Assembly: GCA_902767785.1 (NCBI GenBank)
Contig: CACXIR010000009.1
Location: 1-35,394 of the forward strand
Direction: 5' to 3'
DNA: 35,394 nt
Origin: Fibrobacter succinogenes
Lineage (GTDB): Bacteria; Fibrobacterota; Fibrobacteria; Fibrobacterales; Fibrobacteraceae
Shown: positions 377 through 15,250 of the stretch, one piece after another
Layout of the letters: each line of letters opens with the position of its first letter
How positions within the stretch are numbered: the first letter of the stretch is position 1
Notes under the pieces: model-generated
What the model was told of the DNA's origin: nothing
Database searches by the model: none
What the model saw: the letters and a program-made list of their open reading frames with translations, nothing else
Translations under genes and position numbers: made by a program

Positions 377-3300
377 ATGTTAAAAAGGTTTTCCATGTGG
401 GGTTTTAAGGGTGCGTTGGGTAGGTTCATTCCTGCCATGTTGCTGGCCGTAGGAGCGTTCAGCAGTATTGCGGATGCTCAGTGTGCGGGGACCGTGCGCT
501 TCAAACCTCCTTCTGATTGGACTGAAGCGTATTTTGGTACACGAAATTGTTCGGCAGCGCTAGCCGGCCATGCTACTACTTTAGATGCAGATGGATACTT
601 CACGTTTGATTTGAGTACCATTGGCCATCAAGAAAACGGTGCGACTAGCTTCAGCATTCTCAGTAGCGTTACGCAGGGTGACATCAAAATGATAACCTCG
701 CTTAATTGGGTGTCTGCAGTAGGTGCAGGCGAAGCCCCGCAGAATGCTCTTACGAACAATGCCGTGTTTGCTTGCCCGGGTTCAAACAAGACCCTTTACG
801 TGGCTAGCGACCCTTTGAATCCCGGAAAGACTTATAAAGGCAGCGTTCCTCCCTCGGCCAAGTACCTCTTTGTGCTGGTTCCCGACGACAAGGAGTGGCA
901 GTCCGACGTGATGATGGTTAAGTCTGGCAGCGGTGCCGGGAAACAGATGTCGCCAGCCCCGGGCATGTGCGGCTGGTTCCAGATGGTTTACGAAGAAGCC
1001 CAGGTTCCGGACGACGTCATCATTTACCGCAAGAACAAGTCTGAAGACGAAATAGGCCAGAACGGCCTTTGGGGAAACGACGCGGATGCGGTCCCCCTGC
1101 CATTGAAGACCATTTTGGAAGCCTTTGGTTCCGACAGGCTGTACTTTATCCCCGACGACACCCAGTGGCCTGATGGGGAAGAAGCTGCCCAGGGCCTGTT
1201 CATTACGGACCCGGGCGTGGACGGAATTTGCAAATTCGATTTGGCCGCAGTGATATACGACTCCGACGAAAGCGTGAACCCCTTGTTCTCCTCTGACCCC
1301 AGCACTGCGGGCTATGGTGCCTGTACCGGTGTGCGCAATGGGATTGTGAAGGTGGACTTGGGCCCCGACAACAAGCCCCAGTTCAATGCAGGGAACTCGA
1401 ATGCGACGACTTGCGCTGGCGATGAAAAATTGTTCAGAACGCTCTTTAACTACGCCAAGGATACGAACGAGGTCCAGTGCTACAACATGCCCTTTAGGCA
1501 CTATGGCACCGACCCCCGCTGGGGTTTCGATTCTGATTCCACCCACTACAACCTAAATGGCGACGAACTCGCATCGGGTGGGTACACGGGCGGATTCTAT
1601 CCTCTCGAAAAATCCACGGCGGCAACCCGCGTGACTTCCCTTAGCCCCGTGGCCTGCGACAAGTGCCGCACCAAGAGGAAGGCGGAAGCTCCCGTTCCCT
1701 ACACTTATTCGGGCGACTTCGACAAGTACTGCAACACCCCCGGCTGGTTTGGCGGCAGCGATTGCGACAGGTTGACTAACCCCACCAAATCCTTCTATAA
1801 CGGCGACAATCCCGCAGTCTGGGACTGGGGAACCCGCCAGAACTGGGATGGTGTGACTCGTAACCAGCAGTATTGCTTTGAATCCCATGCCACCTTCACT
1901 TATAGCGAAGACCAGGAGTTCACCTTCCGCGGTGACGACGATATTTGGGTGTTCATCAACAAGAAGCTTGCTGTGGACAACGGCGGTGCCCACCTTGCGG
2001 CTCCCGGCCACGTGGTGCTGAAGAACCTGAATACCACGTATGGCTCGAACTTCCTGGTGCCCGGGAACGACTACCAGTTGGACATCTTCTTCTGCGACCG
2101 CCGCACCACCATGACCAACGTGATTATCAAGACCAACATGTTCATTAAGCAGACCAGCGGTCTTAACGCCAGCGGTACCAAGAACTCCGACGGTTCCGTG
2201 AGCTACAACATCTGCTATGACGAGAGCGGTGACGGATCTTGTGCCTCTCTTGCAGGTGTGGGCGGCGGCAGCAGCTCTGGCGAAGTCCATGCTTGCGGCA
2301 AAGACGTAGGAAACTATGGGACCCTGAAGTACTCGATTTTCACCAGGGGTGGCGAAAAGAAGGCTGATCTGAAATCTGGACAGTCGGGTTGGCAGTATGG
2401 CGGCATAGACCTTTCCAACCCCTTCAGCCCCAAGGTGCTGGCCGACAAGATTTCCGGCCTTGCTCCGGGCAGCTACCGCCTTGTCATAGACTTCTGCGAC
2501 AAGCAAGGCAACTGCAATGCCAACGCCCGTACCTACATCAGCTTCCGCATCAAGGGTAATTTGGATGTGATGACCCAGACCTCCACCTACACGGTGAATG
2601 CCGGTGAAGAGAAGAGCAATGTCTACGCTTCGGGAACCAAGTGGGTGTTTGTGGATAAGGGACTTGCCGGTTCCCGCGTGCCGGTGTACGTGTCGGCCTT
2701 TGCCGATGGCGGCGTAGACCTGCTCAGTGCCATTGGTCAGACGTACACTTTGAACTTGGCGGCCGGCATGGTTGCCTACACCTCTAGGTTTGGTGACACC
2801 AAGGTGACTTGGCCCAAGACGGTGGGCGCCTCGGGTATCGACACCATTTGGGTGTCCCAGGGCCTTGACGGCATGACCACCAACCCCGAAGTGAAAACAG
2901 TGTCCCTCAAGTCCCAGGCCAAGTGCAAGGACTGCAACATTAGGCTGACCTTGACGGCTGCTTCTTCTGGAGTGTCCATGACGGGCGATCCGATTCCTCT
3001 TGATAGCGGAGCGTACGTCATTTCGATCCGTTCCCGCAAGGAGTACATGGGGGATTCCACGGCGTTCATCACGATTTCCAGTGCCGACGACGTGAAGGAA
3101 CTGAGCCTTACCTCTTACATAAACTTGAGGTTCCGCAAGCCTCCTGTTCCCTATCCTCAGCTAGTGGATATGTTTGACTCTCGAGGAGAGGGCCTGGGAA
3201 CCATTCCCATACCCGAACCTTATTACTCGCAGTCTAAGAGCTATCTGGACGGAAAGGGCGATTCCATTGCCATTTACTATGACAGGCCTTTTGCCCCCAA

Positions 3301-4687
3301 CCCGCAGGGCGAGTACAAGGACTCCCTGCCGTTCCTGATTTGCTTGGATTGGGATGAACAAGAGAACGAGAAGTACAACTTCAAGGATATGAAGGCTTAC
3401 AAGAAGACACCTGCCGCAACGGATACCATCCCCTTCTCCAAGACAAAGAAGGACACTGCGGTTACCTGCTCTTACGTAATTGACTCGGTAACGATTTACA
3501 AGGCCTTTGATACCCGCCGTAAGGCAAATGGAGGCAAGAGCGACAGCGTACTCACCTTTGTGGCAGATTCCGCTTTCTCTAGCATGGTGAAGACCTATGG
3601 CCGTGGAAAGCTTTTGAACTTTGCCACGTACATGGACCGTAAAAAGTTGACCAAGGGCCATTTCGACGGAAGCGTTACGGACCGTATGGCCCCTGTGATC
3701 GTGACGGCTCGCGTGCAGAACTTCTCTGAGCAGCTGAGCAAGCTGACGGTGACCCTTTCGGAACCGGTGAAGATGCTGGATGAGACCAACAAGATGGCTC
3801 CCTTCACCTTCTACATGAACTCTGCGTCGGAAGTGGCTGAAGCCAACCGCTTTGCCTCGTCTACGGCAAACTCCGCCCCCACGGGCATGGGTACCGACAA
3901 GATAGTCTTGATTTTCGACAAGACTCAGACCACCAAGAACCCCACTCCGCGTCTGGGCGACTATATCAGATTCCGCGCAGATTCCTGGATGTGGAGCGAT
4001 ACCGCTAACATAGCCTCTGAAGACATCAAGCGTGCTGCTGCCGACAGTATCTTGCATTGGAATTCCCCCACGAACTACAACTCTACGGCGAGACTTCCGT
4101 CTCCTTGGGCAAAGGTTGTGGGTGACTACTCCGTGGAAGTGTCTGCGGTTAAGCTGGCCACTATGAATGCGGAAATCGATGCCAAGAAGACCCCGGCGGT
4201 GGAAGTGTTTGTCGTTCCCACGATGTGGGGTAAGGACGAAATTGCCAAGGCCTATCCCAACACCTTGGGCTTTATCGTGAAGTCGGACCTGTCCTCGTTT
4301 ATGAGCAGGGACTCTACCACGGAAGCCTTCTTCAGCGAACATCCAGACGCCCTTGCAGATGTGTACTTCCAGTACGAGGTGAAGTACTACACCAACCTGG
4401 GTACCTACGTGGCTGGGGACAAGGGAAGGATTTATTGCCTGGATGAAATGAACAAAAAGAAGTATAAAAAGGAATACTTTGGCGGCAAGGACTGCAGGTC
4501 TGCACAGGGCAACTTCTACATCGCCTGGAACATGCTTTCCGACAAGAAGCGCCTGGTAGGTACCGGAGCCTATATCGCAAAGCTCTCCTCCTTCGTGAAA
4601 CTTGCACGATTTGGCAAGCCCAAGTCTGGCAAGGCCGAGGAAACCGACATGTGGGGAGCCAAGCGCGGCAAGGGTATCGTGAAGTAA
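377..4687 (+). CDS. Large secreted fibro-slime domain protein
   Basis: 1436-residue exported protein. Residues 1-34 form a signal peptide (basic start, hydrophobic core, likely cleavage ADA|Q). Around residues 500-585 is a fibro-slime domain, a PA14-like beta fold: an aromatic-rich stretch, then GDDDIWVFINKKL near 518 and FFCDRRTT near 572. Many cysteines occur nearby (CDKCRTK, YCNTPGW, SDCDRL), suggesting disulfides. The middle is a long beta-rich region without a family I recognise. The last ~50 residues include WNMLSDKKRLVGTGAYIAKL, the W-x-G-T-G-x-Y pattern of FlgD/Ig-like C-terminal domains that often act in surface sorting. Fibro-slime proteins in Fibrobacter are linked to the cell surface and adhesion to plant fibre; a binding role here is inference. 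The ATG at 377 has AAAGGG ten bases upstream. A hairpin terminator follows the stop. Confidence 0.85.
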   Translation: MLKRFSMWGFKGALGRFIPAMLLAVGAFSSIADAQCAGTVRFKPPSDWTEAYFGTRNCSAALAGHATTLDADGYFTFDLSTIGHQENGATSFSILSSVTQGDIKMITSLNWVSAVGAGEAPQNALTNNAVFACPGSNKTLYVASDPLNPGKTYKGSVPPSAKYLFVLVPDDKEWQSDVMMVKSGSGAGKQMSPAPGMCGWFQMVYEEAQVPDDVIIYRKNKSEDEIGQNGLWGNDADAVPLPLKTILEAFGSDRLYFIPDDTQWPDGEEAAQGLFITDPGVDGICKFDLAAVIYDSDESVNPLFSSDPSTAGYGACTGVRNGIVKVDLGPDNKPQFNAGNSNATTCAGDEKLFRTLFNYAKDTNEVQCYNMPFRHYGTDPRWGFDSDSTHYNLNGDELASGGYTGGFYPLEKSTAATRVTSLSPVACDKCRTKRKAEAPVPYTYSGDFDKYCNTPGWFGGSDCDRLTNPTKSFYNGDNPAVWDWGTRQNWDGVTRNQQYCFESHATFTYSEDQEFTFRGDDDIWVFINKKLAVDNGGAHLAAPGHVVLKNLNTTYGSNFLVPGNDYQLDIFFCDRRTTMTNVIIKTNMFIKQTSGLNASGTKNSDGSVSYNICYDESGDGSCASLAGVGGGSSSGEVHACGKDVGNYGTLKYSIFTRGGEKKADLKSGQSGWQYGGIDLSNPFSPKVLADKISGLAPGSYRLVIDFCDKQGNCNANARTYISFRIKGNLDVMTQTSTYTVNAGEEKSNVYASGTKWVFVDKGLAGSRVPVYVSAFADGGVDLLSAIGQTYTLNLAAGMVAYTSRFGDTKVTWPKTVGASGIDTIWVSQGLDGMTTNPEVKTVSLKSQAKCKDCNIRLTLTAASSGVSMTGDPIPLDSGAYVISIRSRKEYMGDSTAFITISSADDVKELSLTSYINLRFRKPPVPYPQLVDMFDSRGEGLGTIPIPEPYYSQSKSYLDGKGDSIAIYYDRPFAPNPQGEYKDSLPFLICLDWDEQENEKYNFKDMKAYKKTPAATDTIPFSKTKKDTAVTCSYVIDSVTIYKAFDTRRKANGGKSDSVLTFVADSAFSSMVKTYGRGKLLNFATYMDRKKLTKGHFDGSVTDRMAPVIVTARVQNFSEQLSKLTVTLSEPVKMLDETNKMAPFTFYMNSASEVAEANRFASSTANSAPTGMGTDKIVLIFDKTQTTKNPTPRLGDYIRFRADSWMWSDTANIASEDIKRAAADSILHWNSPTNYNSTARLPSPWAKVVGDYSVEVSAVKLATMNAEIDAKKTPAVEVFVVPTMWGKDEIAKAYPNTLGFIVKSDLSSFMSRDSTTEAFFSEHPDALADVYFQYEVKYYTNLGTYVAGDKGRIYCLDEMNKKKYKKEYFGGKDCRSAQGNFYIAWNMLSDKKRLVGTGAYIAKLSSFVKLARFGKPKSGKAEETDMWGAKRGKGIVK

Positions 4688-5208: not shown

Positions 5209-8200
5209 TTATTCTAGCAAGCCCAGAATCTGTTTGATTTCACGCTCGTCTACGGTGGCGGGTATGAACATGCGCTCTTCGGGCGAAACGTAGATAAGCT
5301 TCCTTTCGGAACTAGGCCGCAAGCTCCTGTCCCTGAGGGCCACAGCTTGGTTCTTGAGTGAATAGAAGAATTTTCCAGTCTGTATGAACTTCTGGTTCTT
5401 TATTCCTTGCTTGAGGGCATCCGTAATCAGCGGGGCGATTTGCGGATTGGGCCAGGTTTCTTTATGGAGTTCCGCCAACCTTTGCTTAAGCAAGTCTTCG
5501 TGGATGGGAGATTCGTGGTCCACGTAGAACTTCAGCTGGGTAATGAGGGATGCAGTCGGCAGTTCGGGGATGGGCTTGTCATGAGGCGTGCCTTCGATTT
5601 TGGGGTGCAGCACAGCATAGGGTACGACCCCCAGGCTCTCTGCCGTAACCATTTCGGTTTCGGCCTCTTCTTCGGCTTCGCCTTCTGGCCCTTCTTTAGG
5701 CGGCGGGGCGACGCTTTGTTCAATGGCAATTGTGGTCACCATATGGCCAACTTCGTCGCTGTAGGCCATGTACCAAGAGGGCGTCCACAGGTTAAGCACC
5801 TTCCAACCCAGTTGCCGTAGCAACGTGTGGCGTATGTAGATGCGGTCTTCGATGGATTCCTTGAAGCGTTCTGTGGTGCAGTCGTCCTCCACCATGGCCA
5901 GGAACCGCTTGGAATTGTTTGCGTCCACCACTACGGGGCCCACGGCGATGCCGCACTGGGAAAATGCCGGTTCCACCTGAATGTTCTCGTTTCGCAGGGC
6001 TTCCATGGACTGGGAATAGAGCGGGGATTCCTTGGGAGATTCTTGGGGAATTTCTAGGGTTAGTACCTTTTGCAGGTATAGGACCCATTCCCAGAACAAG
6101 TCCGGCTTTTCTGTGGGTTTTTGTGCCATGTCCTGCTCGGCAAGGAACACTTGCAGTTCTTGTCTTGCCAAGGTGGTGCAAACGGAAAGCTTGGAATTGA
6201 TTGCCTTTTTCTCGGTAACGTTGTACTCTGCGCAGACTATGATGGAGTCTCGCATTCGGCCCACGGCCCTTTCTGGGGTTTTGATGTAAAAGCTGATGGC
6301 TGGATTGTTGGGCTGAAAGAAAAATCTTGCGGCAAGGGAGTCTTTGGATACCAGGCCCCGGATGGCCTCCCAGATTTCTTGGCATGTGGACTGGTGGAAC
6401 GCCACGATTCCAAGGGTCTTGCCCGGTTGCTTTTCGGCATGCCTGATTGCCGCCTTGGCAGTGTCCATGATCTTGTCTGGGACGACTTTCAGGGTTTGGT
6501 TCTTTAGGACTTCGCGACTGGGCTGGGGCAGCTGGTGAATTCCGCCGCCATAGATTTTGCAGTTGGCGAAATCAACTAGGGAGGGGTAGGAATAAGTGGA
6601 GGAGAACCAAAGCTCCCGTGTGGGAATGCCCTGCCTTAGGCTCATGGTAAGGATGGATTCCTGGAATGCGACTGTGTGGGGAGTAAGGTCCTCTGTATAG
6701 CCATCCAGGGGAAGGTATTCCAGAACAGGCGCATGGGGGTCGCCTATCAATATGGTCTTTTCCGCCCTGAACATGGCGGGCAGGGATTGCACTGCGGTGA
6801 TGCAGTCGGCATCCAAGAGGAGCAGGATGTCGAACTTTTGCGCGGGGGCTAGGTTGTAGCTCTGCTCCAAAGGAATGCAGGCGAAAATCCCAGGGTTGTT
6901 CTTGACGGTGTCGTGTACCAGCCTGAAATTTGCATTGCAGAACTGGTCCAGCTGGGCGCGGTAATCCTTTGTTTTTTGAGATCTAGCCTTGGGCAGCAGG
7001 GAGAACAGCTCTGGTGCCTGTTTGCCGGCTTGCTGAATTTGGGTGCCTGCCCAGAAGTGGGCGAAAGCCTGCGAAATGTTTCGATTGACGTTCTCGGTAT
7101 CCGATAGGTATGCGCAGAGGGCCTTGGCTCCCTGACTTTCTAAGGATTGCAGCAGGGAAGTGATGCGGATGTGGGTTTCCAGGTTTCCCCAGTTGTCGTT
7201 CCACTGCTGGATTTCGTTCAGCCATTTTTCGATGCAGAGGCTTTCCAGGGGGGTCTCTAGCGATAGGGACCGAGTCACCTTCCTTGTAACTTCTTGTAGC
7301 TCCCGCACGGTCTTGGCGTAATCCTTCATTTGCGGAAGAGCATCCTTGAACAGGTGCCATTGTTCCAGAATCTGCAAGAGCAGGTCTATGCGCGGGTCGT
7401 TCTTATGGGATTCCTTGAAGTCGTAGATATAGGTGATTTTCTTGTTCAGCTCGACCCAGTTGGAGCGTTCATAGAGCCAATCCTTGCCTAGCAGGTGGTT
7501 TCCCAGGACGGAGGTGTCCTTGTAGGCACGCTTGTTTTCTTGCAGCTCTATGAGGGTGTCGATAAGGTCTAGCAGCTGGCTGTCAGAGGAAACGGACTTG
7601 GGGTCCTTTAGAACTTTTAAGAGCTTTTTCTTGGAATTGCGGTACCTGTCCGAAAGGCCCTTCAGGGTCGCCTTGAGGCTTTCGGCAAAGTCCTCCCTAA
7701 TGGAGAGGATGTTCTCGTCTACGGCATTGTCGGTGTAGATTTCCGATGTTTGCCTGCGGTAGCGGACCCACTTGTCGCCTGCTTCGGGCAAGGCCTTGAG
7801 GGAATCCTGGTAGTCTTCCCAGTTGCTAGAACGAAGCTCCCAGCCCTCAAAGACGGGCGTGTTGCGGTTGAAATTCTCGAGGATGAGCTCAATGATGTCG
7901 GAAAGTCCTGAGAGGTAGATTCCTGTGGGGAACAGGCTGGTCTTTTCTACCAGCGCAAGCAACGGCTTCAATTCGTTGACCTTGTCCGAGGCGTAGGCCA
8001 GCTCTTTGGCAGTGGCTTCTTGGGCTTCTAGGTCAAGACTTGGAACGCGTACCATCTTGAAAGCGTTGCGAGCTTCTTTGCCCTTTCTTTCAAAGTAGAG
8101 GAAAAGGATCTCGTCTAGATCGGCCTTTATCTCTTGATAGCTTTGATAGGATACTTTTCCCAGTTCGGCGAACAGGCTTTCCGAGGATTTGATTTTGACG

Positions 8201-9330
8201 GCGGGATTCTGGACGAATTCTGCAAGCAGTTCTGAAAGGGGTGCATCCGCTGGCTGGATGTTTGTACTTACAGCTTCGTAATAGCGCAGGAATCCGTCAC
8301 GGTTTTTTTGAAGCTCGGGAAGCAAGGCGTCTCGTTCCGGACCATTGAAGTTCCGATAGAGCGGGAACAGGGTTTCGCTGAATTCCTGCCGGGAACAAGC
8401 CCTGCGGCATACCACCAGTGTTTTTTTGTTGTTCGCCAAGGCTTCGGCAACGATGTTTGCAGCAACCTTCATTTTGGCGGTTCCCGGCAAGGCCTGGATA
8501 GCGTAGGCTTGGCTGTCGGGACTCAAGGCGTCCATGGTGACCTTGGTGGAATGGGAATCGGTAATGTACAGGGGGTAGTGGTCCAGAGGCGAATAAATCT
8601 TGTCAAATACGCCTGAATCAAAAACAGATTCTTTAGTTTGGAAACCTTCTGCCGAGTAGAGAGATTGCAATGTGGTGGACGCGGCACTGTTGGATTCGTC
8701 CAATCCACGTTCCAGGCACTTTTTCAGCCCAATCTTTACGGAGTCCAGGAAGGTGAGGCAAATGCCATGCCGGGTGAATTTCCAATTTTTCTCGGCGGCC
8801 ACTGCTTTTTCAAACAGGGAGAAATATAGGAGTACGCTGAATTTTCCACCTAGGGTGGCGTCTTCTATGGTGGGCAGGTTAATCTGAGAACTTAGGCGTT
8901 CCCGAAGGACCACGTTTTCTACCGGAGGCCTTTTGGACAAGGATACTGTCTGGTTTTGCAGGTCCACGTCTACAGGAACCAGCAAAGTCGGGGAAAGGGC
9001 GTTCCCTTCCCATTTTAGGAATCCCAGCAGAAGGTACAAGTCGGAGTTCCCGAAATCTTCGGCCTTTTCTTTAAGGGCCGCGAACAGGTGCTCCTTGACT
9101 TCCAGCTTTTGTTGAGGTGTAAAGTTAGGTGTCTGGGGAAGGAAGGAATCCAGGGGCAGAGGACCGTTGGTCTGGTTCCATTTCTCGAAGAATAGGTCGC
9201 CTGCTTCCATGACCAGGGGAGTCTGGTAAAGATTCTTGGTGTTGAAATTCAACAAGGAATCCTTAGAATCGAACAATGCGGATTCCTGACAAATCTTAGA
9301 CAGGGTTGCGGACAAAGCAGAACGAGGCAT
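5209..9330 (-). CDS. DUF4011/SF1-helicase/Vsr-like/DUF3320 protein with degenerate ATPase motifs
   Basis: 1373 residues with the order seen in large DUF4011 helicase-nucleases. The N-terminal region (about 1-250) includes FLKWEGNALSPTLLVPVDVD, typical of DUF4011. The Walker A position (about 280-288) reads ALPGTAKM instead of GPPGTGKS: Lys is kept, but a Gly and the Ser/Thr are lost. A long helical insert follows. The Walker B position reads LLLDADC instead of xxDEAS, so the catalytic Glu is missing, and the next motif GDPHAP lacks the usual Gln. RMRDSIIVC and TLARQEL mark degenerate motifs V/VI. Residues ~1143-1186 match the Vsr-like MTES_1575 nuclease (FLAMVEDDC... LLRQLGWKVLNLW). The last ~110 residues resemble DUF3320 (SPIHEDLL). 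Relatives are suspected in DNA processing or phage defence. Here ATP hydrolysis is doubtful and the role unknown. TATATT stands six bases before the ATG. Confidence 0.7.
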   Translation of the reverse strand: MPRSALSATLSKICQESALFDSKDSLLNFNTKNLYQTPLVMEAGDLFFEKWNQTNGPLPLDSFLPQTPNFTPQQKLEVKEHLFAALKEKAEDFGNSDLYLLLGFLKWEGNALSPTLLVPVDVDLQNQTVSLSKRPPVENVVLRERLSSQINLPTIEDATLGGKFSVLLYFSLFEKAVAAEKNWKFTRHGICLTFLDSVKIGLKKCLERGLDESNSAASTTLQSLYSAEGFQTKESVFDSGVFDKIYSPLDHYPLYITDSHSTKVTMDALSPDSQAYAIQALPGTAKMKVAANIVAEALANNKKTLVVCRRACSRQEFSETLFPLYRNFNGPERDALLPELQKNRDGFLRYYEAVSTNIQPADAPLSELLAEFVQNPAVKIKSSESLFAELGKVSYQSYQEIKADLDEILFLYFERKGKEARNAFKMVRVPSLDLEAQEATAKELAYASDKVNELKPLLALVEKTSLFPTGIYLSGLSDIIELILENFNRNTPVFEGWELRSSNWEDYQDSLKALPEAGDKWVRYRRQTSEIYTDNAVDENILSIREDFAESLKATLKGLSDRYRNSKKKLLKVLKDPKSVSSDSQLLDLIDTLIELQENKRAYKDTSVLGNHLLGKDWLYERSNWVELNKKITYIYDFKESHKNDPRIDLLLQILEQWHLFKDALPQMKDYAKTVRELQEVTRKVTRSLSLETPLESLCIEKWLNEIQQWNDNWGNLETHIRITSLLQSLESQGAKALCAYLSDTENVNRNISQAFAHFWAGTQIQQAGKQAPELFSLLPKARSQKTKDYRAQLDQFCNANFRLVHDTVKNNPGIFACIPLEQSYNLAPAQKFDILLLLDADCITAVQSLPAMFRAEKTILIGDPHAPVLEYLPLDGYTEDLTPHTVAFQESILTMSLRQGIPTRELWFSSTYSYPSLVDFANCKIYGGGIHQLPQPSREVLKNQTLKVVPDKIMDTAKAAIRHAEKQPGKTLGIVAFHQSTCQEIWEAIRGLVSKDSLAARFFFQPNNPAISFYIKTPERAVGRMRDSIIVCAEYNVTEKKAINSKLSVCTTLARQELQVFLAEQDMAQKPTEKPDLFWEWVLYLQKVLTLEIPQESPKESPLYSQSMEALRNENIQVEPAFSQCGIAVGPVVVDANNSKRFLAMVEDDCTTERFKESIEDRIYIRHTLLRQLGWKVLNLWTPSWYMAYSDEVGHMVTTIAIEQSVAPPPKEGPEGEAEEEAETEMVTAESLGVVPYAVLHPKIEGTPHDKPIPELPTASLITQLKFYVDHESPIHEDLLKQRLAELHKETWPNPQIAPLITDALKQGIKNQKFIQTGKFFYSLKNQAVALRDRSLRPSSERKLIYVSPEERMFIPATVDEREIKQILGLLE

Positions 9331-9355: not shown

Positions 9356-10213
9356 CTACAGTTGACGCGATGTCAATTCCAGGGCGTATTCCAGGCTGGC
9401 CGGGGCGGGATTTGGAATAAGGCCAGACTTGAAAAGGACCCGCCCCAGGAGTTCCTGTGGTAGGATGCCCGCATCCCGGTCTTCGCGAATGCTGTGGGAC
9501 TTTTCCCGCTTGGAAAGTTTTTTGCCAGAGGCGTCGACGATGAGGGGGTGGTGCAGGTATTTCGGAGGATCTGTTCTGCCTAAAATCTCCATCAGGGCTA
9601 TTTGTCTGGCAGTGGAGGATAGCAGGTCTTCGCCTCGCACCACATGGGTGATGCTTTCTTGAATGTCGTCGACGCAGACGGCAAACTGGTAGGTCCAGCA
9701 TCCATGCCGGTCTTGAATGGGAAAGTCTCCGCATTGGAGCTTCGGGTTCTCTGCGAAGTCCCCAAGCCGCAGGTCATGCCAGTTTATTACTTTGTCTGGA
9801 ACCTTGATGCGAAGGGAATGGGGGGCGTCAAGGGGTTGTTCTCCATCGCACTTTCCCTGGTAAATGATTTCGCCGTACTGGTTTTTGGGATTTTGTTCTT
9901 CTAGTTCTTTGCGGCTGCAGTAGCAGGGGTACACAAGGCCTTTCTGTTGCAGGGCTTCCAGGATTTTTGCGTAGGAGTCGAAGTGTGCGCTCTGGATGCT
10001 TTCGCTTTGCCACTTGAACCCTAGCCACTGCAGGTCTTCGCGGATGGCGGCGATATGCTCGGGCCTGGCCCTGCCTTGGTCGTGGTCTTCGATACGCAGG
10101 TGGATTTGCAGGCCCCATTTTTTTGCGGCCGCCCACACGTACAAGGCCGAAAGCAGGTGGCCTTCATGGAGGTAGCCCGTGGGGCTGGGCGCGAATCGGA
10201 TTTTGCCGGACAT
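9356..10213 (-). CDS. gluQ: Glutamyl-Q tRNA(Asp) synthetase
   Basis: 285 residues, the short catalytic-domain form of glutamyl-tRNA synthetase with no anticodon-binding domain. Family members attach glutamate to the queuosine base of tRNA-Asp. Visible motifs are the class I HIGH signature as HEGH (16-19) after FAPSPTG, the KMSKS-type loop as KLSKR near residue 231, and a zinc site C97-x-C99...Y118-x3-C122 that is characteristic of GluQ. GEDLL and the preceding VVR fit the family active site. The start chosen is the ATG at 10213 (MSGKIRFAPSP), because family members begin just before this motif and TATATT lies six bases upstream; a start at 10261 would add 16 unlikely residues. It shares a short divergent promoter region with the gene at 10280. 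Confidence 0.88.
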   Translation of the reverse strand: MSGKIRFAPSPTGYLHEGHLLSALYVWAAAKKWGLQIHLRIEDHDQGRARPEHIAAIREDLQWLGFKWQSESIQSAHFDSYAKILEALQQKGLVYPCYCSRKELEEQNPKNQYGEIIYQGKCDGEQPLDAPHSLRIKVPDKVINWHDLRLGDFAENPKLQCGDFPIQDRHGCWTYQFAVCVDDIQESITHVVRGEDLLSSTARQIALMEILGRTDPPKYLHHPLIVDASGKKLSKREKSHSIREDRDAGILPQELLGRVLFKSGLIPNPAPASLEYALELTSRQL

Positions 10214-10219
10214 GGGGTA

Positions 10220-10246
10220 AATATAAATTTGTTTTAATGCTATATT
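10220..10246. promoter_or_regulatory. Divergent promoter pair between gluQ and the DUF3157-like gene
   Basis: On the minus strand TATATT (10225-10220) lies six bases before the gluQ ATG. On the plus strand TATATT (10241-10246) points toward the gene at 10280 and would start RNA near 10253, with a GGGGTGG ribosome-binding region before its ATG. The two boxes are 15 bases apart, so polymerases could not occupy both at once. Confidence 0.45.
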
Positions 10247-10279
10247 ATTGTCGTAAAACAACGAGAAATCGGGGTGGAT

Positions 10280-10858
10280 ATGAAATTTGGTGGAATGGTC
10301 GGGTGCCTTTGCCTGGCAGCCTTTGCCGCAGGGGCGTTTGCGGCTGATATTATCGCGACGACGTCCAACGGTTCTACAGTGATTTTACACGATAACGGCC
10401 GTTGGGAATATTACCAGAACAATGCCAAGGTTCGGGACGTTCGCCCCGAGGCAACGCCCGAAGACGCCAAGTTCAACGTGTCCGTGCTTTACGAGAGCGC
10501 AGAAAAAATCAAGAAGAATGTGCGCATGGCCCTGGAAGCGGACTTTGCTACGGAACAGGAAATCAAGGACAGCCTGCGTAAGGTTCCCAAGGGCGGTGTC
10601 ATTTATTTCCAGGTACCCACCAAGCAAATCAAGAAGGGCCTGAACCGAGAATTCACTTATTCCGTGTACGACAAGGGCAAGACTCCCATTTTCTCCAAGA
10701 CGGTGGCCGAAACGGAGGCTACTCCTAGCGAAGATGCCGGCGTGTCCAACTTGGTGGTGGTTCCTGTGTATGGCCGCCCCAAGTCCAAGGTGATGAAGGC
10801 CCGGGTGGAAAACCGTGCCGCCCATCAGACTCTGGACATAGATGTTCCTATCCAGTAG
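10280..10858 (+). CDS. Small secreted protein, DUF3157-like
   Basis: 192 residues with a signal peptide over the first ~20 (MKFGGMVGCLCLAAFAAGAFA). The mature start reads TTSNGSTVILHDNGRWEYY, a pattern shared by small periplasmic proteins of the DUF3157 type, in which a short beta hairpin carries an aspartate-glycine-tryptophan turn. The rest is beta-rich and lysine-rich with no catalytic motif. I cannot assign a function. The ATG at 10280 is preferred over 10274 because GGGGTGG lies just before it and the peptide then starts with a normal n-region. The downstream exonuclease begins 21 bases after the stop, so the two are probably cotranscribed. Confidence 0.65.
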   Translation: MKFGGMVGCLCLAAFAAGAFAADIIATTSNGSTVILHDNGRWEYYQNNAKVRDVRPEATPEDAKFNVSVLYESAEKIKKNVRMALEADFATEQEIKDSLRKVPKGGVIYFQVPTKQIKKGLNREFTYSVYDKGKTPIFSKTVAETEATPSEDAGVSNLVVVPVYGRPKSKVMKARVENRAAHQTLDIDVPIQ

Positions 10859-12792: not shown

Positions 12793-15231
12793 TTAGGATG
12801 ACTTCTTGCCAAAGCGGCGAGGCTTGAATTCACGTGGCGGAAAGTCGAACTTGAGCTTGCCCTTTTCCAAGAAGAGGTAGGCATCGAATAGACGATGACT
12901 CTTGCTACGGAATCCCTTGATAAGATCCGTCTTCTCGCCGGCCAGGAGTTTTTGGATGGCCTCGAAGGGCAGTTCCTTGCCCAAGAGGATTTTCGGTAGC
13001 GAAATGCCTGTAGGCAGTTTGTCGATGTAACTCTGGGAAACGTAACCGGTGAGCGTCTCGAACACGTCAGTTCCATCTACGTAGGACTGGCCCACCTTCT
13101 TGATGGTTTCGATTTCTTCGGGCTTTTCGTCAAACACGAACTCTATCTTGTTCTGGTCGTTGATGATGACCACCGCCGAAAATTCGGAGCCTTTCTTGCT
13201 GCGGAATCCCGTAAGGGGACCGATTTTCCGTTTGGTCAATAGTTCCACCACCTCTTCGTCGGTAAGGCGCTTGCCGCCAATCATCTTGCGGATGACAATG
13301 CCGTCTTCGGTCTTGTAGCGGCTTACGGTCTCGAACACCTTCTTGCCGTTTACGGGGCTGAACTTTGCTTCGCCCTCGGTGTGTTCTTCCTTGAATCCCT
13401 TGATGTTTTTCACCATGGTGCGGGTCATGTCCACAATGCCCTTCATGAATTCTTCGCGGGATTCCTTGCCCTTGGAAATCAGGTCCATCTTGTATTCCCA
13501 TTCCCCGGTGAGTTCCGGGCTGGTAAGGGCGTCGCAGTTCATGGCAGAAAGTACCTTGATAAGGTCGAAGGCCTTGGCGGTGGGAATCATGTCCTTGCCG
13601 TCGCGGACCACGTACTTGTCGCTGACCAGTTTCTCGATAATGGCAGCACGGGTGGCAGGGGTCCCCAGGCCACGCTCCTTCATGGCGTCACGGAGTTCGT
13701 CGTCTTCCACTAGCTTGCCTGCGCTTTCCATCATGGAAAGCAGGGTACTTTCGGTGTAGTGTGCAGGGGGCTTGGTAAAATCTTCGGCGGCATCGATGCC
13801 GAGCGTTTTGGCGGCAGTCCCCTTGAGTTTGGGAATGTCGGATTCCTCATCGGATTCCTTGCCGTAAACCGCCTTGAATCCGGGGTCCACCAGGATCTTG
13901 CCCTCGGTAAGGAAGGTTTCCTTTTCTACGGTGGTCACGCGAGTGGTGTTCAGGTACTGTGCAGGCGGGTAGAACACGGCAATGAACCGCTGGCAAATCA
14001 TGGTGTAGATTTTCTGTTCCGCTTCGGAAAGGCTCTTGGGAGCGACTCCTGTGGGGATGATGGCGAAGTGGTCCGAAATCTTGGTGTTGTCGAATACCTT
14101 CGGGGTACGCTTGACCCAGTTCTTGTCCAGGACCTCTTGGGCGAACTTGGCAAGCGGTCCAGTAATCTTACCCAGGGTGGCCTTCACGGGGGCCACGTAG
14201 TCTTCGGGCAGGCAACGGCTGTCGGTACGGGGGTAGGTGGTGGCCTTGTGGTGTTCGTAAAGGCTCTGGGCGATGGAAAGGGTGGTCTTGGCGCTAAAGC
14301 CAAAACGGTTGTTTGCTTCGCGCTGCAGCGTGGTCAGATCGTAGAGCTGGCCGCACTTTTGCTGGCTGGGAGCGGTGGTCTCTTCGATGGTGCCAGGCTT
14401 GCCCTTGCACTTGTCGAGAATCTCGTTGACCTTTTTTTCATCGAAAAGCTGTTTTTCCTTTTCTTTGCCGTTTTCGCAGAACCATTTTCCCTTGTAGGCA
14501 TTGCCGCTGTTGTCAAAGTTGGCTTCGATGGTCCAGAACTTTTGGGGCTTGAACTGCAGCCGCTCCTCTTCGCGCTTTACGATAATGGCGAGGGTGGGTG
14601 TCTGCACGCGGCCGCAGGGGGTAATCTGGAACCCGCCCATGGAACTGTTGTAGGCAGTAAGACCACGGCTTCCGTTCATGCCTACCAGCCAGTCGGCTTC
14701 GGAGCGGCAAAGGGCGGCATCCTTCAGGTTTTCCATGTCTTCTGCGGTACGCAGGTGCTCAAAGGCATCCTTGATGGCGGCAGGAGTCATGCTCTGCATC
14801 CAGAGGCGCTTCAGGGTCTTGCCCTTGAAGTTTCCCTTGAGAACGTAATCCAGGATGTAGAAGAAAATCAGTTCACCTTCGCGGCCCGCATCGCAGGCGT
14901 TGATGATGGTGGTAACGTCTTTCCTCTTGATGAGTTTCCCGAGGGCGGTCAGGTGGCTCTTGGTGGTAGGGAGCGCCACCAGCGGGAACTTTTCCGGCAG
15001 CATGGGGAGCGTCTTCATGTCCCAGGCCTTGTACCGTTCGTCAATGTCTTTAGGATCGGCAATTCCTACCAGGTGCCCAATGGCGTGGCTCACGATGGTG
15101 GTATCGTTTTCCCAATAGGCCGTTTCTTTCTTGAAACTTTTTGTGCCAAGGACCTTTACCAGGTCGGCTGCTACACTAGGTTTTTCTGCAATGATAAGGG
15201 TCTTTTCGGGAAGCTTGGATTTGGTTGCCAT
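12793..15231 (-). CDS. topB: DNA topoisomerase III (type IA)
   Basis: 812 residues. The Toprim domain opens the protein (TLIIAEKPSVAADL) and continues with INACDAGREGELIF, whose acidic residues bind magnesium. The catalytic tyrosine is near residue 333 in TTYPRTDSRCL; this residue cuts one DNA strand by forming a phosphotyrosine link. The rest of the four-domain type IA core follows (GLGTPATRA region). Beyond about residue 600 lie two C-terminal topoisomerase repeats with the G-x-x-x-GFRSK pattern (TGFRSKKG and KGFRSKSH) in place of zinc fingers. The enzyme relaxes and decatenates DNA and usually works with a RecQ-type helicase, which is not nearby. The start 20 bases after the upstream glycosyltransferase stop, with AAAGG as RBS, suggests one transcript. 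Confidence 0.92.
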   Translation of the reverse strand: MATKSKLPEKTLIIAEKPSVAADLVKVLGTKSFKKETAYWENDTTIVSHAIGHLVGIADPKDIDERYKAWDMKTLPMLPEKFPLVALPTTKSHLTALGKLIKRKDVTTIINACDAGREGELIFFYILDYVLKGNFKGKTLKRLWMQSMTPAAIKDAFEHLRTAEDMENLKDAALCRSEADWLVGMNGSRGLTAYNSSMGGFQITPCGRVQTPTLAIIVKREEERLQFKPQKFWTIEANFDNSGNAYKGKWFCENGKEKEKQLFDEKKVNEILDKCKGKPGTIEETTAPSQQKCGQLYDLTTLQREANNRFGFSAKTTLSIAQSLYEHHKATTYPRTDSRCLPEDYVAPVKATLGKITGPLAKFAQEVLDKNWVKRTPKVFDNTKISDHFAIIPTGVAPKSLSEAEQKIYTMICQRFIAVFYPPAQYLNTTRVTTVEKETFLTEGKILVDPGFKAVYGKESDEESDIPKLKGTAAKTLGIDAAEDFTKPPAHYTESTLLSMMESAGKLVEDDELRDAMKERGLGTPATRAAIIEKLVSDKYVVRDGKDMIPTAKAFDLIKVLSAMNCDALTSPELTGEWEYKMDLISKGKESREEFMKGIVDMTRTMVKNIKGFKEEHTEGEAKFSPVNGKKVFETVSRYKTEDGIVIRKMIGGKRLTDEEVVELLTKRKIGPLTGFRSKKGSEFSAVVIINDQNKIEFVFDEKPEEIETIKKVGQSYVDGTDVFETLTGYVSQSYIDKLPTGISLPKILLGKELPFEAIQKLLAGEKTDLIKGFRSKSHRLFDAYLFLEKGKLKFDFPPREFKPRRFGKKSS

Positions 15232-15250
15232 ATATCTTGACCTTTAAAAC

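Follow-up and report, generated by a model that had tools for sequence, protein, structure and literature searches.

RecC of RecBCD unites a dead helicase fold and a dead nuclease fold in one protein and serves as a scaffold. Another bacterial pseudohelicase is PriA of Deinococcus radiodurans: the account in PMC4504706 describes a clade-wide loss of helicase motifs with retention of the gene, and both the loss of ATPase activity and the retained DNA binding were measured. Large proteins in which a DUF4011 region, a superfamily 1 (SF1) helicase, a Vsr-like (MTES_1575) nuclease and a DUF3320 region are combined belong to the candidate defence family PDC-S37 and the anti-phage ProA (NF058533) type, and in Pseudomonas aeruginosa a DUF4011 gene is described as a conserved flank of the defence hotspot cDHS1 (as outlined in PMC10250203). 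In this work we analysed a gene of this type in Fibrobacter succinogenes (assembly GCA_902767785.1, contig CACXIR010000009.1, positions 1 to 35,394; the whole 35,394-nucleotide stretch is called the window below). The gene lies at positions 5209–9330 on the minus strand and is a single open frame of 1373 codons with an ATG start; an earlier note, made from the letters of the window, had already described this frame as uninterrupted. We found that the motor and cutter residues of the family are, as judged from alignments, lost, that this loss of canonical catalysis is fixed across the orthologues and that purifying selection acts on every folded domain of the protein.

The link of the 1373-residue protein to the known helicase-nucleases was established by several profile comparisons. 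Pfam gave MTES_1575 at residues 1100–1200 (positions 5731–6033; E 1e-6, 29.2 bits against a cut-off of 38.2), DUF4011 at residues 81–146 (positions 8893–9090; E 2.4e-4, 21.6 bits, slightly under the cut-off of 22.2) and DUF3320 (E 0.014, 15.8 bits against 25), so that all three names fall under their curated cut-offs. With the PADLOC profile of PDC-S37 the protein scored 369.7 bits, and this profile was matched by all 25 family members compared. The NCBIfam score for ProA was 230 bits against a cut-off of 1500, which is strict, since the canonical copy from Fibrobacter genome G049 (1240.7) and the Haloferax relative (1304.1) also miss it and the Azospirillum one (1570.4) passes. Hhe (NF042953) shares the DUF4011 and MTES_1575 regions, but matched even more weakly (100 bits; the cut-off is 2000). 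A profile-profile comparison with the canonical G049 copy by hhalign covered 1175 columns at 20% identity with a probability of 99.6. On this sequence basis, the family link to the DUF4011/SF1-helicase/Vsr-like-nuclease/DUF3320 proteins of PDC-S37/ProA type is firm, and it extends over the whole length and the domain order. Searching the PDB by sequence brought no useful match (the lowest E was 0.58 for the protein as query and 0.31 for the profile), and no paper on the protein was found in a literature search for DUF4011, MTES_1575, DUF3320, PDC-S37, ProA/Vsr, Hhe, pseudohelicase, and Fibrobacter defence, helicase and essential genes.

To define the changes at the active sites, a motif table was compiled for 25 orthologues from seven Fibrobacteraceae genera (11 from Fibrobacter and 14 from six other genera) and eight canonical relatives from six phyla, namely two copies from other Fibrobacter genomes and six plasmid copies (Haloferax, Aristaeella, Bacteroides, Azospirillum, Salinibacter and Rhizobium). 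A partial orthologue (L122) was left out of this table, the identity matrix and the tree. All eight canonical proteins have GPPGTGKS, DEAS, a motif-V QGD[E/D], the motif-VI arginine and the first nuclease aspartate. In the window protein the former Walker A reads ALPGTAKM (residues 280–287, positions 8470–8493). The first glycine of the motif (position of G280), the glycine before the lysine (position 285) and the Ser/Thr at position 287 were each found in 0/25 orthologues; the PG of the P-loop is mostly retained, and Lys286 is present in 17 of the 25, the window protein included, and replaced by W, A, L, G, R or N in the other eight. The former Walker B, LLLDADC, starts at residue 837. In a gap-free alignment between the FD and GD anchors, the canonical DEAS faces L839-D840-A841-D842 (positions 6805–6816), so the Mg-binding aspartate as well as the glutamate would have changed: no orthologue has Asp at the first position (Leu in 24, Thr in one) or Glu at the second (Asp in all 25). 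If the strand is alternatively shifted by one residue, D840 stays the aspartate and the glutamate becomes alanine; in the predicted model the Walker-B strand ends at L839.

The losses are not confined to the ATP-binding motifs. In the former motif V (residues 1023–1028, positions 6247–6264) the glutamine is gone from all 25 orthologues and the final RD alone is kept (25/25), and at the motif-VI position of Arg1054 (motif at residues 1046–1055, positions 6166–6195) Leu (16) or His (9) is found instead of Arg. In the nuclease region the column of Asp1131 contains no Asp in any orthologue, while Glu1148 and Asp1150 are each invariant; the next nuclease glutamate is present in just six of the eight canonical relatives as against 25/25 orthologues. 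In addition, pairwise alignment with two canonical proteins showed that about 45 residues before motif II are missing in the family. The canonical motifs were absent from all 33 rows of an orthologue alignment that includes the window protein (a second entry of the window, L001, and a C-terminal piece, L025, were excluded) and from all 17 rows of a further alignment, in which, as in the tree alignment, one sequence (L036) was used minus its first 390 residues. Two rows (g23) have a GGKT, but displaced by two residues.

It is clear that the missing Gly and Ser/Thr of Walker A and the missing catalytic Glu of Walker B, both pointed out in the earlier note, are features of the family as a whole; its description of eroded ATPase motifs was right but too narrow, as the losses also reach motif V, motif VI and the first aspartate of the nuclease. 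Its statement that MTES_1575 remains holds for the sequence family and fails for the active site. The same note had named orthologues with canonical motifs as the sign of lineage-specific decay, and since the canonical motifs occur in 0/25 and the substitutions are fixed, such decay is not supported.

The invariance of the acidic residues D840, D/E842, E1148 and D1150 does not fit simple erosion, and the pattern of retained residues bears on two rival explanations in which some chemistry persists. In one, D840-x-[D/E]842 would give the old ATP pocket a new mode of binding a nucleotide or metal, and the pocket would act as a slow switch or sensor, not as a motor. It would account for D840 and D/E842 being present in 25/25 orthologues where the canonical proteins have E and S, and it fits the frequent retention of Lys286 and PG and the displaced GGKT; the absence of Ser/Thr287, Gly285 and the motif-VI arginine from all 25 orthologues and the replacement of the lysine in eight of them speak against it, and we regard it as unlikely. 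The other, that the ATPase or the nuclease still works with unusual motifs, draws on the invariant E1148 and D1150 and again on K286, but it has to contend with the joint loss of several independent catalytic positions in every orthologue and seems to us highly improbable.

The question of whether the helicase shell survives was addressed by structure prediction. Residues 1–1200 were modelled from the 25 aligned orthologues without templates (mean predicted local distance difference test score, pLDDT, 80.1; predicted template modelling score, pTM, 0.64). Foldseek matched this model to 81 chains at E ≤0.001, with spliceosomal Aquarius, Dna2, Upf1 and Sen1/SETX at the top, and in VIA-align it aligned with SETX (8fth; Z 21.8, 426 residues, 5.5 Å) and with UvrD entries (Z 20.6–21.2, 313–321 residues). 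These matches indicate that the shell is predicted to survive as an SF1 fold (Upf1-like/UvrD-like) with two RecA-like domains. Between the P-loop block and motif II lies a long insert, mostly helical in the prediction (residues 331–815, positions 6886–8340), that contains residues invariant in the family. Confidence is low after about residue 1120 in much of the nuclease region, and we therefore make no structural claim for the nuclease. In a separate AF2 model of residues 1085–1373, pLDDT was mostly above 90 at residues 1241–1329 (the DUF3320 region, positions 5344–5610). Foldseek found no match for this model at E ≤0.001; VIA-align listed many rows with a winged helix-turn-helix (wHTH), all with Z below 8 (best Z 7.6, 70 residues, 3.2 Å), which suggests a C-terminal winged helix at about 1241–1329. 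This agrees with the wHTH that, as described in PMC3710099, overlaps DUF3320.

Selection on the gene was measured by the ratio of nonsynonymous to synonymous substitution rates (dN/dS). Among the 40 pairs with the lowest dS out of all pairs of 29 sequences (L004 excluded), 38 gave dN/dS values of 0.027–0.155; of the remaining two, one pair (L002/L027) is identical and one distant pair (dS >1) gave 0.36. When eight pairs were pooled, the ratio was 0.07–0.11 in every folded domain, with 0.10 for the dead P-loop and 0.09 for the dead nuclease, and only the acidic linker was relaxed (0.33). Purifying selection thus acts on every folded domain. Across the 25 orthologues, whose minimum pairwise identity is 27%, 85 residues are invariant. 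The insert (485 residues) holds 20 of them, of which six are missing from all eight canonical relatives, and the wHTH and tail (133 residues) hold another 20; newly invariant residues without a counterpart in the canonical proteins occur in both the insert and the tail. The view that selection maintains an undisrupted frame although its ATPase motifs are no longer canonical is thereby borne out.

The explanation that a defence gene is simply decaying into a pseudogene could point to the broken motifs and to two disrupted copies among 94 matching genomes, one with a stop inside the frame (G044, C128) and one split into two overlapping frames (G116, C9, L125). Either disruption could be real or an assembly error. 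Identical losses across seven genera, the number of invariant residues at so low an identity and dN/dS well below 1 contradict this explanation already, and we give it almost no credence; pseudogene formation and lineage-specific decay were ruled out by the motif alignments, dN/dS and the invariant residues.

We then looked at how the gene is distributed. A profile search covered 167 genomes of the phylum: 80 of Fibrobacter, 31 others of the family and 56 from outside it. The broken gene was matched in 78/80 Fibrobacter genomes; the two without a match have a completeness of 65% and 71%, and no close gluQ, the gene for tRNA glutamyl-Q(34) synthetase, was found in them either. The window is contig 9 of a 2.53-Mb assembly with a completeness of 87.8%, in which there was one match to the 1373-residue protein, and orthologues with 75–77% identity were found on nine Fibrobacter contigs. 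An orthologue was present in 15 of the 31 other family genomes, spread over six genera (the copy of G109 is in two pieces on two contigs), a sixteenth genome (G097) yielded no more than a weak hit on a frame of 245 aa, and the remaining 15 gave none; outside Fibrobacteraceae 0/56 genomes matched. A single-protein search (25/25 genus genomes, 0/16 others) had suggested confinement to the genus, but its sample included no other genus of the family, and the profile search corrected this to seven genera. In a quick maximum-likelihood tree, the 25 orthologues and the eight canonical proteins fell on opposite sides of a branch with support 100.

The position of the gene is also conserved. In the window, gluQ (positions 9356–10261, minus strand; TIGR03838, 252.8 bits against a cut-off of 276.7) lies upstream on the same strand, 25 bp away, and it adjoins the broken gene in 15/15 Fibrobacter loci and in 17/18 further loci, mostly from other genera (32/33 in total); in two relatives without the broken gene, G164 and G094, gluQ has different neighbours. 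From the distribution, the tree and this locus we conclude that the gene is old, that its carriers received it by vertical descent and that part of the family lacks it or has lost it. Judging by the matches in 78/80 genomes, the gluQ neighbourhood, the purifying selection and the single clade, it is a vertically inherited pseudo-helicase/pseudo-nuclease and not a case of lineage-specific decay. On the other side, a convergent fibro-slime/PA14 protein gene (positions 377–4687, plus strand; TIGR02148, 105.3 bits) is a frequent neighbour, found in 12/15 Fibrobacter loci (not in L029, L030 and L034) and in 7/18 further loci; some of the 11 further loci in which it was not found end too early to tell. 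Next to gluQ, at window positions 10274–10858, a 194-aa protein with weak sub-threshold matches (DUF3157, 15.4 bits) is encoded in most of the family loci examined. A 493-aa frame at 13759–15240 (plus strand) is antisense to a topoisomerase gene (12793–15231), and its apparent conservation is probably an echo of that gene.

The canonical forms behave differently. When 60 genomes were searched for PDC-S37, all 37 Fibrobacter genomes gave a match that was due to the broken core protein (in G015 to just a piece of it), and an extra full-length canonical copy was found in two of them, G049 (1407 bits) and G006 (1216 bits). Close to the G049 copy are a PDC-S01 gene and a type IIG restriction-modification gene, as expected for a mobile defence gene, and with this copy as a tblastn query 428 plasmid records were matched; in 20 of these the match spans at least 80% of the query. 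Locus, spread and motifs thus set the canonical forms apart from the broken ones, the broken gene occupying a core locus, not a mobile one. A weak profile match within a 1963-aa frame (G132:C1:652171-652569) is perhaps a third canonical Fibrobacter relative, similar to the 1986-aa frame of G006.

A further explanation is that the protein serves against phages as a sensor or decoy: although dead, it would still have the surface through which the family's defence enzymes engage the DNA of phages, phage inhibitors or partners. The PDC-S37 and ProA scores and the canonical copies, one of them in defence surroundings, are in keeping with such an ancestry, but the chromosomal locus beside gluQ is fixed and vertically inherited, and the neighbours, scanned with Pfam but not with PADLOC, included no gene named as a defence gene; we consider this explanation doubtful. 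The earlier note's suggestion of a DNA-binding or regulatory derivative, possibly linked to defence or repair, found no direct support: the locus is fixed, the protein is acidic (net charge, K+R-D-E, of -27), and defence is pointed to by ancestry only.

The explanation that we favour, and hold to be reasonably probable, is one early catalytic loss followed by vertical inheritance beside gluQ, leaving a non-catalytic scaffold or adaptor. As the sequences show, the canonical catalytic residues disappeared from a DUF4011-type SF1 helicase that carries a Vsr-like nuclease at its C-terminus, most simply in one event that preceded the split of the Fibrobacteraceae genera with the gene, which has since been passed on beside gluQ as one gene. 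The protein would neither translocate nor cut any more; its preserved helicase shell, together with the long insert, the winged helix and the conserved tail, may bind a partner protein or nucleic acid. Intact retention in one chromosomal place despite the lost residues makes a non-enzymatic job probable, and the sequences give good support to a non-ATPase role. Several observations weigh against this explanation. The Walker-A lysine survives in most orthologues, and the invariant acidic residues at Walker B and in the nuclease are not demanded by a purely structural role; the acidic protein argues against simple DNA binding; the gene, absent from 15 of the 31 other family genomes, is not indispensable to the family; and there are the two disrupted copies.

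PriA and RecC are precedents for working without catalysis. PriA belongs to another helicase family, and for it the loss of ATPase activity was measured, as reported in PMC4504706. The idea that the protein replaces RecC, prompted by a PDDEXK_1 search that gave no match in five of seven Fibrobacter genomes, was ruled out: a separate RecC-like protein is encoded in a recC-recB-recD operon of the window's own genome (best hits 248, 393 and 275 bits, respectively, all under the equivalog cut-offs). Three-gene blocks of similar sizes were seen in three other genomes, judged by open reading frame size only. Genome G003, which has PDDEXK_1 matches at C2:175330-176064 and C7:15868-16689, also has a recBCD-sized three-gene block (L098). 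A 1441-aa protein (L094:670-4992; G000:C73) with a RecQ-family helicase at 53–425 and UvrD/Rep-like matches at about 855–1270 apparently has two helicases in one chain.

More tentatively, and as a possibility that we rate below an even chance, a complete phage-defence motor-nuclease may have been converted once, at an early stage of the Fibrobacteraceae, into a non-catalytic housekeeping protein with new conserved surfaces (the tryptophan-marked helical insert and the acidic pair D-x-[D/E] where Walker B used to be). It might be a scaffold that senses a nucleotide or metal and is expressed together with tRNA modification (gluQ), and would then represent a new pseudoenzyme family. For annotation the finding is a warning, because core proteins are labelled PDC-S37 in 25/25 members even with their active sites lost. 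It offers a clear natural case in which a defence-type helicase-nuclease without canonical catalysis became a core gene of a genus and of several sister genera, and it makes testable the question of what use a 1373-residue motor shell is when it lacks the motor.

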